Assembly (NCBI GenBank): GCA_945874155.1
Contig: CAMCFO010000001.1
Coordinates: 62,001-126,000, forward strand
Reading direction: 5' to 3'
DNA length: 64,000 nt
Source: an uncultured Bacteroidales bacterium
GTDB taxonomy: Bacteria; Bacteroidota; Bacteroidia; Bacteroidales; UBA932
The position numbers and the translations under genes are program-made. Position 1 is the first letter of the stretch, and the number at the start of each line of letters is the position of its first letter. Shown here piece after piece: positions 14,272 through 20,776 of this stretch. The notes beneath the pieces are model-generated. The model made no database searches, was not told the origin of the DNA, and saw nothing but the letters and a program-made list of their open reading frames with translations.

Positions 14272-14778
14272 ATGAAAAGAACTGTATTGATAATGCTTTT
14301 GCTCTGCTCCCTGGTCCTGTCAGGCTGCGATTTCTTCCGTGCACTGGCCGGCCGTCCCCTCAGTGCGGAGATAGAGGCAAAGCGCGAATTGATAGAAAGA
14401 CAGCTCCGTGAAAAGGAGCAGCGCAGGCTGGATTCGCTCAACACCGTGCACCGGATTGAGGCGGATTCCCTTGCTGCACTCTCCAGACTTTCTGAACTCT
14501 CTGCCGTAATCCTCGAAGCGCAGAGTCTCGGAGGACTTGTGGAGGAGACAGCTCCCGGCTACAGCATAGTCGTGGGCTCATTCAAGAATGACTCCAACGC
14601 GGAAAAGCTGGCGGCAAGGATAGGGGAGGACTTCGGTGCATCTGTGAAGGCATTCAACAACGGAATGTTTGCCGTGACGGTGTGCAACTGCTTCAGCATC
14701 AAGCGTCTGGCTGAGTCATACGAAATGGTTTTGAACGAAAAATTCTGTCCGAGTGATGTCTGGATTCTCAAAAACTAG
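14272..14778 (+). CDS. SPOR-domain lipoprotein
   Basis: 168 residues. Lipoprotein signal with lipobox LVLSGC, a charged helical stretch (EIEAKRELIERQLREKEQRR) predicted as coiled-coil, then a C-terminal SPOR domain of about 75 residues (YSIVVGSFKNDSNAEKLAAR ... VKAFNNGMFAVTV ... WILKN). SPOR domains bind denuded peptidoglycan strands, often at the division septum. The stop lies 23 bases inside the next gene, whose ATG is at 14756, so the two are coupled. Probably an envelope protein linking outer membrane and peptidoglycan. Confidence 0.85.
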   Translation: MKRTVLIMLLLCSLVLSGCDFFRALAGRPLSAEIEAKRELIERQLREKEQRRLDSLNTVHRIEADSLAALSRLSELSAVILEAQSLGGLVEETAPGYSIVVGSFKNDSNAEKLAARIGEDFGASVKAFNNGMFAVTVCNCFSIKRLAESYEMVLNEKFCPSDVWILKN

Positions 14779-16132
14779 CTTGGCCTCAGTACTTCTGTCA
14801 ACGGCCCTGATATTCAATGCATCAGCCCAATACCGCGACTCTGCTGGCTATGACGACCTTTTCGACAGCGAAACCGCATCCGCACTTCGTGCCCACGTGC
14901 GCAACCTCAGTGCAGCCTCTCTTGAAGGCCGTGCGGCAGGTTCTCAGGGGGAAGCGGAGGCAGCCTCATATCTTGAGCAAACTTTCAAGGATTACGGCAT
15001 AGACCTTCTCGAATTCAATTCCGGCAACATTTTCGGCATCAACAACGGCAGCGACACCCTCACCTCCCGCAATGTGGTAGGATTCATCCAGGGCAGCGAC
15101 CCCAAGCTTGCAGACCGCTACATAGTGGTGGGAGCCCGTATGGACAACAGAGGCAGCGACAGTTACAGCATCGACGGCAGGAGCGTGGAGAGAATCTACA
15201 GCGGGGCCAACGGCAATGCTTCCGGTATGGCGCTTATGCTCGAACTTGCCCGTATGCTCGGTACCAACGCCATAGCTCTCGGCAGATCAGTGCTTTTCGT
15301 GGGTTTCGGAGCATCTTCCCAATCCTATGCCGGAGCCTGGTATTTCCTAAACAGGCAATTCTCCGACTCCGACCGTATTGACGCAATGGTGAACCTGGAC
15401 TGCGTGGGTACACTCTACAATGGTTTCTATGCCTATACGGCTTCCAACAACGACCTCAATACCGTCCTGCGCTCCCTTGAGGGCGAACTTCTGCCCCTGA
15501 GACCCGAGGTGGTCTCTTTTGAGACATATCCTTCGGACCACCGGGCCTTTTACGCCAGGGAAATCCCGAGCATCAGCTTCAGTACCGGCAAGTTTGCCGA
15601 ATACAACACAGAGCGCGACACCGGCAGCATCATCGACTACAGCGGAATGGAAAAGGAACTGGAATATGTCTATGCTTGCGTGGTCCGGCTTTCCAGGCTG
15701 GGTGCTTCGCCGCTTTTCCATAATGCACTGCCTGATGACAAGGGTAGGGAATCTGCGGTCATACCTTATTATGAATGTGACGTGAAACCGACCTTCCTCA
15801 ATAGCAGCGACCCCCGACAGTTCCTCACCAAATGGGTCTATGCCTATCTGAAATATCCCCGTGAGGCTGTCGAAAACGGCATCCAGGGCACCGTGATGGT
15901 GGAATTCATCATCGGGGCAGACGGCAAGGTCAGGGATGCCAGAGTGGTCAGGTCCGTTAGCGAGCTGCTTGATGCCGAGGCTCTCAAGGTGGTGAGCGCA
16001 TCGCCCAAGTGGAAACCCGGCAAGGTCAAGGGGGTGAAGGTGCCGTGCTCAATGACACTCCCTGTTGAATTCAGGCTGGAAAAGTCCCGCAAAGGCAGTT
16101 TCGGCATTAATGATATCATTGTAACTAAATAA
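14756..16132 (+). CDS. Degenerate M28-type peptidase fused to TonB C-terminal domain
   Basis: 458 residues from ATG 14756 (the ORF track uses GTG 14753). A signal peptide ends near FNASAQ. Residues about 30-330 follow the M28 zinc-aminopeptidase fold ([36 protein letters not shown]). Several metal ligands are changed: HxD reads R128-M-D, GADDNASG reads GANGNASG, and the EE pair reads SS ([14 protein letters not shown]). SDH near the end is kept. Residues about 365-445 are a TonB C-terminal domain ([20 protein letters not shown] ... [15 protein letters not shown]). The likely role is binding or scaffolding in the periplasm rather than peptidase activity. It overlaps the SPOR gene and precedes leuS by 8 nt. 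Confidence 0.75.
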
Positions 16133-16140
16133 CTTACGAT

Positions 16141-18912
16141 ATGAATACAGACTACAATTTCAGAGAAATTGAAGCGAAATGGCAGTCTTGGTGGGCAGAA
16201 CACCAGACTTTCAAGACGGTTGAGGATCCTTCCCGACCGAAATATTATGTTCTGGATATGTTCCCCTACCCTTCGGGAGCGGGACTTCACGTGGGCCATC
16301 CTCTCGGCTATATAGCCAGCGACATCTACAGCCGCTACAAGAGGCTCCGCGGATTCAACGTCCTGCATCCTATGGGTTACGATGCCTTCGGTCTGCCTGC
16401 AGAGCAGTATGCCATCCAGACCGGCCAGCACCCCGAGAAGACAACCAACGACAATATAGCCCGTTACCGCAGGCAGCTGGACCGCATAGGTTTCTCCTAC
16501 GACTGGTCCCGCGAAATCCGCACCTGCGACCCTGAATATTACAAATGGACCCAGTGGGCATTCCTCAAAATGTTCGGCTGCTGGTACGACAATGATGCGC
16601 AGAAAGCCCGTCCTATCGAAGAACTGGAAAGCGCATTTGCACAGGGCGGCAGTTCTGCGGTGAATGCAGCCTGCACCGAGCACGAGGCCTTCACGGCAGA
16701 GCAGTGGGCCGGATTCGACTCCCTCAAGAAAGAGGAAGTGCTTATGAACTATCGTATTGCATATCGTGGGGAGACTTCCGTCAACTGGTGCCCGAAGTTG
16801 GGAACCGTGCTCGCCAACGACGAGGTCAAGGAAGGTTATTCGGTGCGCGGAGGCCATCCGGTGGAGCAGAAGAAGATGACCCAGTGGCAGCTCAGGGTTT
16901 CCGCCTATGCAGGGAGGCTGCTGGACGACCTTGATGCCCTTGACTGGACTGATTCACTGAAAGATATGCAGCGCAACTGGATAGGACGCAGCCAGGGTTG
17001 CGAAATGGTGTTCAAGACAGTGAATGGTAGTGAGGAATATGATGTTACCATTTTCACCACACGTGCCGACACCGTGTTCGGAGTCACCTTCCTCGTGCTG
17101 GCTCCGGAAAGCGACTGGGTGGAGAAACTGACCTCTGCTGACCGCAAGGCCGAAGTGGAAGAATATCTCAGCCAGGTGCGCAAGAAGACTGAGCGCGAGA
17201 GGATTTCCCAGACCAGGAATGTGACAGGAGTATTCTCCGGCTCGTATGCCATCAACCCTCTCACCGGGGACAAGGTGCCTGTCTGGATTTCGGAATATGT
17301 GCTCGCGGGTTACGGTACCGGCGCAATTATGGCTGTTCCGGCACACGACAGCCGTGACTATGCATTTGCCAAGACTTTCAATCTGCCTATAATACCCCTT
17401 ATCGAGGGTTGCGACGTGAGCAGTGAAAGTTTCGATGCCAAGGACGGCATAATGTGCAATTCCGGTTTTCTGAACGGACTCACTGTGAAGGAGGCAATCC
17501 CGGCTGCCATTGACTATGTGGAGCAGCACGGACTGGGACGGCGGAAAATCAATTACCGTCTGCGCGATGCCATCTTCTCCCGTCAGAGATATTGGGGAGA
17601 GCCTTTCCCGATTTGCTACAAGGATGGCCGGGTTATTCCGATTCCTTTCGACAAACTGCCTCTGGAACTGCCTGAAATCAGCACTTTCCTGCCTACGGAG
17701 AGCGGAGAGCCGCCTCTTGCAAGGGCAGAGGGCTGGGAATATGAGGGCTGCCCGATTGAGACCTGCACAATGCCCGGCTTTGCAGGCAGCAGCGCCTATT
17801 ATCTCCGCTATATGGACCCTCACAATCAGGATGCCCTGGTGAGCCGGGAAGCGGATGAATACTGGCGCAACGTGGACCTTTACATAGGAGGTACCGAGCA
17901 CGCCACCGGCCACCTCATCTACTCCCGCTTCTGGAACAAGTTCCTCTACGACCTGGGCTATGTCTGCGAGAAGGAGCCTTTCCGCAAGCTTATCAACCAG
18001 GGTATGATCCAAGGCCGCTCCAGCTTCGTGTACCGCATCATAGGCACCAACACCTTCGTTTCCTTCGGACTGAAGGACCAGTACAAGACCACAGAAATCC
18101 ATGCGGACATAAGCCTGGTGCACAACGACCGTCTCGACACGGAGGCTTTCAAAAAATGGATGCCTGAATATGCTGACGCGGAGTTCATACTTGAGAACGG
18201 GGAATACATTTGCGGCAGTGCAGTGGAGAAGATGAGCAAGTCTATGTTCAACGTGGTGAATCCGGACAATGTATGCGACACCTACGGAGCCGACACTCTC
18301 CGCCTCTACGAAATGTTCCTGGGCCCTCTGGAGCAGAGCAAGCCGTGGGACACCAAGGGAATAGACGGTGTGCACCGTTTCCTCAAGAAGGTGTGGAGGC
18401 TGTTCTACGACCGTGACGGCTTGATACTCAATGATGAAAAGGCCAGTCCTGCGGAACTCAAGTCCCTGCACAAACTTATAGGCAAGGTGACAGCAGACAT
18501 CGAGGCCTTCTCTTACAACACAGCCGTTGCAGCATTTATGATAGCCCTGAATGAACTCACCGAACTCAAATGTTCCAAGAGGGAGATTCTGGAGCCTCTC
18601 ATCATCCTGCTCAGCCCGTTTGCTCCTCACATCGCGGAGGAACTCTGGCACGCAGCCGGCCACGAGGACACCATCACCTTTGCACAGTGGCCTCAGTACA
18701 ATGAAGCTCTCACCGTTGAGGACAGTTGCACCTACGCGGTTTCCTTCAACGGCAAGACCCGCTTCACTGTCGATCTCTCCAAGTCCCTGGGCAAGGAGGA
18801 GGTCGAAGCCATCGTGCGTGAGCATTCCCTGACTGCGAAATATGTGGGTGACGGCAAAATAGTCAAGATGATTGTCGTTCCCGGAAAGATCGTGAATGTG
18901 GTTGTAAAATAA
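16141..18912 (+). CDS. leuS: Leucyl-tRNA synthetase
   Basis: 923 residues. Class I synthetase with HIGH-type motif in [15 protein letters not shown] (about 43-57), a CP1 editing domain ([36 protein letters not shown]), the KMSKS motif at 697-701 (EKMSKSMFN) and an anticodon-binding helical domain. It is longer than the E. coli enzyme because of insertions typical of Bacteroidetes LeuS, including one before the KMSKS loop ([20 protein letters not shown]) and one near residues 160-200. It charges tRNA-Leu in the cytoplasm. It follows the M28/TonB gene and precedes two YitT paralogues with only 6 nt between. Confidence 0.97.
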
Positions 18913-18918
18913 CTTGTT

Positions 18919-19827
18919 ATGAAAGCGTTGCAGAAAAACAAAGTGCTTCCGGTTCTTTGGGATTATGTGATTCTGACTTTCGGCTCTTTCGCATACTGTC
19001 TTGCCTGGACTTCTCTCCTGCTGCCTAACAAAATCGCCAGCGGAGGTCTCACCGGTCTTTGCGCCATCATCCAGTATGCCACGACCGGGGCAATCCCTAT
19101 GTCCTATTCCTTCTTCGTGCTCAACACCCTGCTGGTAATAGGCGGAACGCTGATTATGGGCAAGGGTTTCGGTTTCAGGACCATCTACGTCTATGTGATG
19201 TCCTCAATTTTCCTGCTGATACTGCCGCATTTCGACCCTTGGCTTGCCCTGCATTTGGATGAAAAGATGTTCGCGGCCCTGCTTGGAGGAGCTATGGAGG
19301 CCTTCGGCATAGGCTTCGTGCTGAACAGGGGAGGAAGTACGGGAGGAACCGACATCATTGCAGTTTGCGTGAACAAATTCTGGCCGGTGTCTTTGGGCAA
19401 GGTTTATCTTTTCTCTGACCTGTTCATCATATTCACGGTGGTCTTCCTGCCGGATATGACCTTTGTGGACGTGCTCTACGGTTACGTGGCAATGGTTTCA
19501 TTCTCCATAGCCATAGATTTCTTCACTATGGGCCCGAAATCCACGGTGCAGATACTCATCTTCTCGCGCAATTACGAGGAGATTGCCAACCGGCTCATCG
19601 CAATGGACAGGGGAGTGACTGCCCTGAATTCCGTGGGCTGGTATAGCGGCGAGGAGAGCAAGGTGCTGCTGGTCATCGTGCGCAAGGCATTTATGCAGGA
19701 TGTCGTGAACCTCGTAAAGGAATTGGACCACAAGGCTTTCGTTTCCGTTTCCAATGCGTCGAGCGTGTATGGTGAAGGGTTCGAGGAAATCAAGTCAGGT
19801 CTGAAAACGAAAAAGAAAAAGGACTGA
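18919..19827 (+). CDS. YitT family membrane protein (first of tandem pair)
   Basis: 302 residues. An N-terminal membrane domain with about five helices carries the YitT/DUF161 hallmarks LLPNKIASGGLTGLCAIIQY and RGGSTGGTDIIAVCVNKF. A C-terminal DUF2179 cytoplasmic domain has VTALNSVGWYSGEESKVLLV and VSNASSVYGEGFEEIK. Transport function is suspected but unproven. The neighbouring gene is a paralogue starting 1 nt after its stop, so both come from one duplication and are co-translated. It sits 6 nt downstream of leuS. Confidence 0.88.
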   Translation: MKALQKNKVLPVLWDYVILTFGSFAYCLAWTSLLLPNKIASGGLTGLCAIIQYATTGAIPMSYSFFVLNTLLVIGGTLIMGKGFGFRTIYVYVMSSIFLLILPHFDPWLALHLDEKMFAALLGGAMEAFGIGFVLNRGGSTGGTDIIAVCVNKFWPVSLGKVYLFSDLFIIFTVVFLPDMTFVDVLYGYVAMVSFSIAIDFFTMGPKSTVQILIFSRNYEEIANRLIAMDRGVTALNSVGWYSGEESKVLLVIVRKAFMQDVVNLVKELDHKAFVSVSNASSVYGEGFEEIKSGLKTKKKKD

Positions 19828-19828
19828 A

Positions 19829-20776
19829 ATGACAGTGAATTTCAAAAACAGGTTCTGGGTGGGGGTGAAGGAATATGCGATAATGTCGCTGGGCCTGCTG
19901 CTCTATGCCCTCGGTTGGACAATTTTCCTCTTGCCCAACAATCTTCCCGGCGGCGGAGTCTCGGGTATTTCCGCCATTATCCAATATGCAACTCAGGGTG
20001 CCATACCTATGGGCTGGAGTTATTTCGTAATCAACCTTGTGCTGGTGGTCATAGGTATTTCCATTTTGGGAAGGGGCTTCGGGTGGAAGACCATCTATGC
20101 GATTATCTACACCTCCCTGCTGCTCAATCTGCTTCCAAGCCAGATTCCTGCAACGTTCATCAGTGCCTTTTCCACCGCAAACGGGCCTTTGCTCTGCACT
20201 GTGCTGGGCGGTGTGCTCTCGGGAGTCGGAATTGGGGCTAGTATGTCTCAGGGAGGCTCCAGCGGCGGAACGGACATAGTGGCGCTTTGCATCAACAAAT
20301 ACAAGAACATCAGTCCCGGCAAACTCATACTTATGATGGATGTGGTCATCATCTCATCTTCACTTTTATGCCCATCATTCAGGAGCGATGGTACACAGGT
20401 GGATATGATCACCAAGATTGCCAATGCCGCCTACGGTCTGATACTCATCACTGTCAACAGCTACACCATAGACCTCTATCTTTCCGGTTCAAAGCAGTCA
20501 GTGCAGGTGTTCATCTTTTCCAGGAAATATGAGCAGATTGCCGATGCCTTGGCCTATGATATGAAGAGGGGAGTGACCCTTTTCCATTCTATGGGATGGT
20601 ACAGCAAGAAGGAGAGCAGTGTGCTGATGGTCGTGGCCCGCAAAACTGACCTGAGTCTGCTGCTGAGGTATATCAAGAGCATAGACCCGGATGCCTTCCT
20701 GTCGGTTTCCACGGTTATGGGCGTGTTCGGGCAGGGTTTTGAAGAGTATAAAGGCAAAAAAATCACCTCCAAATGA
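19829..20776 (+). CDS. YitT family membrane protein (second of tandem pair)
   Basis: 315 residues and clearly homologous along its length to the preceding protein: FLLPNNLPGGGVSGISAIIQ, QGGSSGGTDIVALCINKYKN and GVTLFHSMGWYSKKESSVLMV match the corresponding positions. It carries a few extra residues around CPSFRSDGTQVDM. Five or six predicted membrane helices plus DUF2179. The pair could form a heterodimer, but nothing in the sequence proves it. Its stop lies inside the terminator hairpin. Confidence 0.88.
   Translation: MTVNFKNRFWVGVKEYAIMSLGLLLYALGWTIFLLPNNLPGGGVSGISAIIQYATQGAIPMGWSYFVINLVLVVIGISILGRGFGWKTIYAIIYTSLLLNLLPSQIPATFISAFSTANGPLLCTVLGGVLSGVGIGASMSQGGSSGGTDIVALCINKYKNISPGKLILMMDVVIISSSLLCPSFRSDGTQVDMITKIANAAYGLILITVNSYTIDLYLSGSKQSVQVFIFSRKYEQIADALAYDMKRGVTLFHSMGWYSKKESSVLMVVARKTDLSLLLRYIKSIDPDAFLSVSTVMGVFGQGFEEYKGKKITSK

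Follow-up and report, generated by a model that had tools for sequence, protein, structure and literature searches.

A predicted periplasmic M28-fold protein lacking its di-metal site, fused to a TonB C-terminal domain, in a family of Bacteroidales

The window, the whole 64,000-nucleotide stretch of DNA analyzed here from an uncultured Bacteroidales bacterium, encodes an M28 aminopeptidase-fold protein that carries a TonB C-terminal domain (TonB_C) and, as judged from the aligned sequences, has a destroyed di-metal site that lacks the general base and three of the five metal ligands. We consider that the protein most probably (roughly 55%) acts as a periplasmic pseudopeptidase, in which the former peptidase domain would be a binding or scaffold protein and TonB_C its docking module.

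Results

The gene lies on the plus strand at positions 14756–16132 with an ATG start; a GTG at 14753 would add one residue to give 459 amino acids, and residue numbers are counted from this GTG. The product begins with a Sec signal peptide (14756–14827, plus strand) that ends before Gln26. Among 156 orthologues, the residue at −1 is usually small and the Gln at +1 is almost invariant, and a lipobox and a TonB-type SxxxH or SHLS-like membrane motif are each found in 0/156. The M28 domain follows at 14870–15697 (plus strand; Pfam core 15071–15661), where residues 107–303 match Peptidase_M28 (PF04389) with an E value of 1.4e-22 and 80.8 bits against a cut-off of 21.3. The fusion to a TonB C-terminal domain, as proposed in a preliminary description of this DNA, is borne out at 15845–16078 (plus strand), where residues 365–442 match PF03544 over the entire profile (2–79 of 79; E 7.9e-22, 78 bits against 24.6) and the protein also matches TIGR01352 (54.1 against 27.1). 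The best reading of these features is an exported, soluble periplasmic protein of a gut bacterium. The source genome comprises 2.59 Mb in 69 contigs and is 97.8% complete; among named public contigs, those of Rikenellaceae MAGs come nearest (83% and 81% protein identity), and Candidatus Cryptobacteroides excrementipullorum follows at 58%, so that the window's genus is probably Cryptobacteroides-like.

The AlphaFold2 model of the protein has a mean pLDDT of 89.3 and a pTM of 0.67. Its best Foldseek matches in the PDB are the Streptomyces griseus and Vibrio aminopeptidases (E about 1e-15, TM about 0.7–0.76 by target), and glutaminyl cyclases of the same fold appear lower in the list. Low confidence at residues 327–333 of the model suggests a flexible joint ahead of TonB_C. 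The model of an intact relative has a pLDDT of 80.3.

Site positions were read from a phmmer alignment to the Vibrio/Aeromonas aminopeptidase and 2ek8, with the Vibrio enzyme numbering. His97, Asp117, Glu151, and Glu152 of that enzyme correspond to R129, N153, S188, and S189 of the window protein. R129 (15137–15139, plus strand) stands in place of the ligand His of HxD; N153-G154 (15209–15214, plus) replace the bridging Asp and its neighbor; and S188-S189 (15314–15319, plus) replace the general-base Glu and the ligand Glu, respectively. Of the five ligands, in the order H, D, E, D, H, three are thus replaced (R129, N153, and S189), and only D216 of NLD (15398–15400, plus) and H263 of SDH (15539–15541, plus) are still present. 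The alignment to active M28 enzymes reproduces exactly what had been described before, namely HxD, DD, and EE reading RxD, NG, and SS with SDH kept. Weak metal binding by the residual D216 and H263 is conceivable in principle.

Conservation of these changes was assessed in 67 same-genus sequences, including the window protein and excluding the divergent congener L030. R129, S188, and D131, the Asp of HxD, are kept in 67/67, and N153 and G154 in 66/67 each. The same substitutions are fixed in 66–67 of 67 congeners at 48–83% identity and are therefore not chance events. D216 is retained in 61/67 (N or E in the other 6) and H263 in 59/67 (N or Q in 8). Column 189 holds 13 different residues; in the tree subset, its entropy rank of 273 of 276 places it with the most variable M28-domain columns, and the entropy at R129 and S188 is zero. 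Within the genus, the substitutions are thus conserved at positions 129, 153, and 188 and not at 189. Because column 189 is free while the other lost positions are fixed to new letters, the pattern indicates that the pocket has been remodelled and is not simply decaying. Two divergent congeners added later, L184 and L194, deviate from the genus pattern, with RAAEDH and SNSRAY at the site. Replacement ligands were also sought: across the 67 sequences, neither a conserved His or Cys nor a site acid has newly appeared, and alternative ligands, which the preliminary description had also named as evidence against its reading, thus gain no support from the sequences. New charged residues that the genus conserves are limited to R129, D210, D234, E257 (a conservative D-to-E change), and E302, none of which supplies a metal ligand in a lost-ligand column.

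Full-length orthologues with 36–47% identity occur in 16 of the 26 sampled genera of the family, the window's genus included, and both Pfam domains are present in all eight orthologues tested. A recognizable full-length copy is missing from the ten other sampled genera and from two same-genus genomes (G287 and G334). Outside the family, the best matches from 291 further genomes of the order include no fusion and stop near profile position 340, thus covering M28 only; none was seen at E ≤ 1e-70 in 246 further genomes of the class either, and a plasmid search returned M28 or TonB_C pieces apart, without a fusion. Of the outgroup M28 proteins, two whose full sequences were read have different C-terminal parts.

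Orthologues with intact ligands, which the preliminary description had named as evidence against its reading, do exist in other genera, and they leave the site in the window's genus unrestored. The intact site HDEEDH is found in 19 of the 156 sequences, from genera g36, g29, g35, and g43; one of them, L084, has the same architecture and position (M28 E 2.1e-44, TonB_C E 2.1e-18). Degraded sites read HDGEDH (g40, g47), HDSEDH (g42), HDGEDY and RDGEDY (g41), NNKERY (g31), NDKENY (g37), QYGNNY (part of g29), and RNSxDH (the window's genus). The general base is missing in 136 of the 137 non-intact sequences, and in 20 sequences the base alone is lost. Between pseudo and intact forms, TonB_C is somewhat more conserved than M28 (48% versus 39%). 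The intact orthologues within the family indicate that its ancestor was probably an M28-TonB_C enzyme with an intact site.

A maximum-likelihood tree, computed without the ligand columns, covers 111 family members and 8 outgroup M28 proteins; it is a quick tree, in which 34 of 116 inner branches are weakly supported. With losses taken as irreversible, full-site loss within the family is counted nine times on this tree and seven times if branches below 95 are collapsed and losses in sister groups are counted as one; both figures cover the family only, one outgroup event having been subtracted from each raw count (10 and 8). The full site thus appears to have been lost separately at least about seven times. 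For the path to the window's genus, the tree suggests that the base went first (E to S, common to g42), followed by D153 to N, which is common to L030 (still AHIDH), and then by H129 to R.

Pairwise dN/dS over the M28 part is about 0.04–0.1 for dead pairs, with 0.068 for the window protein against L059 and 0.058 against L062, and one close intact pair gives 0.04; these values are approximate, since several pairs have dS above 1. The dead domain is constrained as in its intact relatives and hence is not decaying, and a pseudogene reading is rejected on the basis of dN/dS. The sequence marks of a pseudoenzyme, namely catalytic residues conserved in their lost state and purifying selection, were found. 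Collectively, the dead-but-functional status of the pseudo-M28 domain appears well supported, and the Pfam match, the AlphaFold model, the genus-wide substitutions, and the selection on the gene all agree with the initial impression of a kept fold with a lost site.

The gene start is overlapped by a small lipoprotein gene (14272–14778, plus strand) with the lipobox LSGC and a SPOR match just below the Pfam cut-off (20.6 bits against 21). Within the genus, this lipoprotein is mostly 30–45% identical, and its neighbors are much more conserved. Coupling to a SPOR protein is weaker than first described. The SPOR-like gene abuts the pseudo-M28 gene in the window's genus only; in the three other genera examined (L084, L093, and L096), gcvT, which the window's genus does not have there, separates the two. 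In many other genera, a SPOR gene is located within about 1.4 kb, and the neighborhood of L068–L070 gave no SPOR match. Linkage is therefore not tight. The constant neighbor is instead leuS, encoding leucyl-tRNA synthetase (16141–18912, plus strand), which lies directly downstream in nearly all orthologue loci checked. After leuS, at 18919–20776 of the window, are two tandem similar membrane proteins of 302 and 315 amino acids, YitT-like by eye.

The window's genome holds only two clear M28 proteins. The second, L119 (G000:C47:8753-9820, outside the window), has 356 amino acids and no TonB_C and looks dead as well, with KD at the EE position and an SDH motif without its His. Its same-genus relatives (L212–L227 and L230) all lack the general base, mostly replaced by K, H, or R, and SDH, and thus form a second pseudo-M28 family in the genus. 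The genome also encodes a separate canonical TonB, anchored and Pro-rich. In the congener L194 (positions 1426–2388; genome G218, reduced to 1.5 Mb), TonB_C is lost and the pseudo-M28 is kept, in an ORF of 320 residues that ends 5 bases before leuS.

Discussion

The favored pseudopeptidase would work without catalysis. Its old substrate cleft would serve as a peptide- or carboxylate-binding or protein-contact surface, and R129 may act as a fixed cation where the metal used to be. TonB_C would dock the pseudo-M28 domain to a partner, by analogy with TonB_C domains that dock to outer-membrane transporters at their TonB boxes. The role in periplasmic binding or tethering that the preliminary description put forward is plausible. 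Canonical TonB is anchored in the membrane and binds its targets through its C-terminal domain, by strand addition (PMC12204202); the window protein has no anchor and no proline-rich spacer and is therefore not a TonB energy transducer. As the L194 congener has lost TonB_C, docking through this domain is not universally required. A far-reaching extension, which we regard as doubtful, is that the family has a class of pseudopeptidases restricted to it, docked in the periplasm by TonB_C, in which catalysis was never the main function under selection. The cleft, with Arg in the metal position in the window's genus, would then be a ligand-recognition module shown through TonB_C to outer-membrane transporters or the Ton machinery, and catalysis, being dispensable, would have disappeared on at least about seven occasions.

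Several other explanations were weighed. An envelope tether, in which peptidoglycan or its stem peptides would be bound jointly by the SPOR lipoprotein and either the pseudo-M28 domain or TonB_C, is unlikely. SPOR domains bind denuded glycan, which counts in its favor, as do the upstream SPOR gene, overlapping in the genus, and its proximity in many other genera; however, the intervening gcvT, the loci without a SPOR match, and the sub-threshold score of the match itself speak against it. It is improbable that the protein is still an enzyme that catalyzes a different reaction at a mononuclear or metal-free site made of D216, H263, R129, and S188. The fixation of R129, N153, S188, and D131 in the genus is as expected of a new site, and the glutaminyl cyclases in the Foldseek list have the same fold. 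However, D216 and H263 vary, column 189 is free, no new conserved His, Cys, or site acid has appeared in the genus, and the substitutions differ by lineage (for example NNKERY, QYGNNY, and NDKENY), which argues against one new chemistry.

Regulation is one general role of pseudoenzymes (PMC11266112), and a dead form might act in trans, binding and regulating an active M28 sibling that the cell also makes. We give this idea little credence, since the only other clear M28 of this nearly complete genome is degraded too. Finally, the enzyme might have become unneeded, with the gene now drifting into decay. The many independent, heterogeneous losses, the missing TonB_C in one congener, and the shortened L184 (406 amino acids) fit such drift; nevertheless, it is very improbable and largely refuted, because the frame is open in nearly all genomes, dN/dS is low, 34 columns are invariant among 42 diverse members, and the locus is largely constant.

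Compared with known systems, the window protein shares with the M28 aminopeptidases (Vibrio proteolyticus AAP and Streptomyces griseus AP; PF04389) the common fold, the motif order, the second-sphere Asp of HxD, and the SDH loop, but it has three of five ligands and the base replaced and TonB_C instead of their other C-terminal parts. In eukaryotes, nicastrin, nicalin, and the transferrin receptor are inactive M28 homologues without a working metal site that serve in binding or scaffolding. The window protein resembles them in its M28-type fold without a working metal site, whereas it is bacterial, predicted to be periplasmic, and fused to TonB_C, and its family contains both intact and dead orthologues, so that stepwise loss is visible. 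Similar to the TonB energy transducers (PF03544/TIGR01352), it carries a whole TonB_C above the curated cut-off; in contrast, it lacks the N-terminal anchor, SHLS, and Pro-rich spacer and has a cleavable signal peptide, with the M28 domain in the place of the spacer. The MxcH receptor family (NF038079) likewise bears TonB_C as an add-on and gives a weak cross-match limited to the TonB_C part, but MxcH is an outer-membrane receptor, whereas here TonB_C is joined to a pseudopeptidase. In the literature searched, we found no description of an M28-TonB_C fusion or of repeated bacterial M28 loss, and no paper in which "peptidase M28" and "TonB C-terminal domain" occur together; M28 is absent from a recent review (PMC11266112) that deals with inactive metallopeptidases.

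Pseudoenzymes have been studied mostly from single ancient losses. Here, one family, with one architecture and a largely fixed position, contains intact, base-only-lost, and near-total-loss forms, with about seven to nine losses, so that the order and consequences of enzyme death are testable on close orthologues. Repeated losses under strong selection on the protein point to a job other than peptide cutting, and the series implies a non-catalytic role that would be common to the enzyme and the pseudoenzyme.
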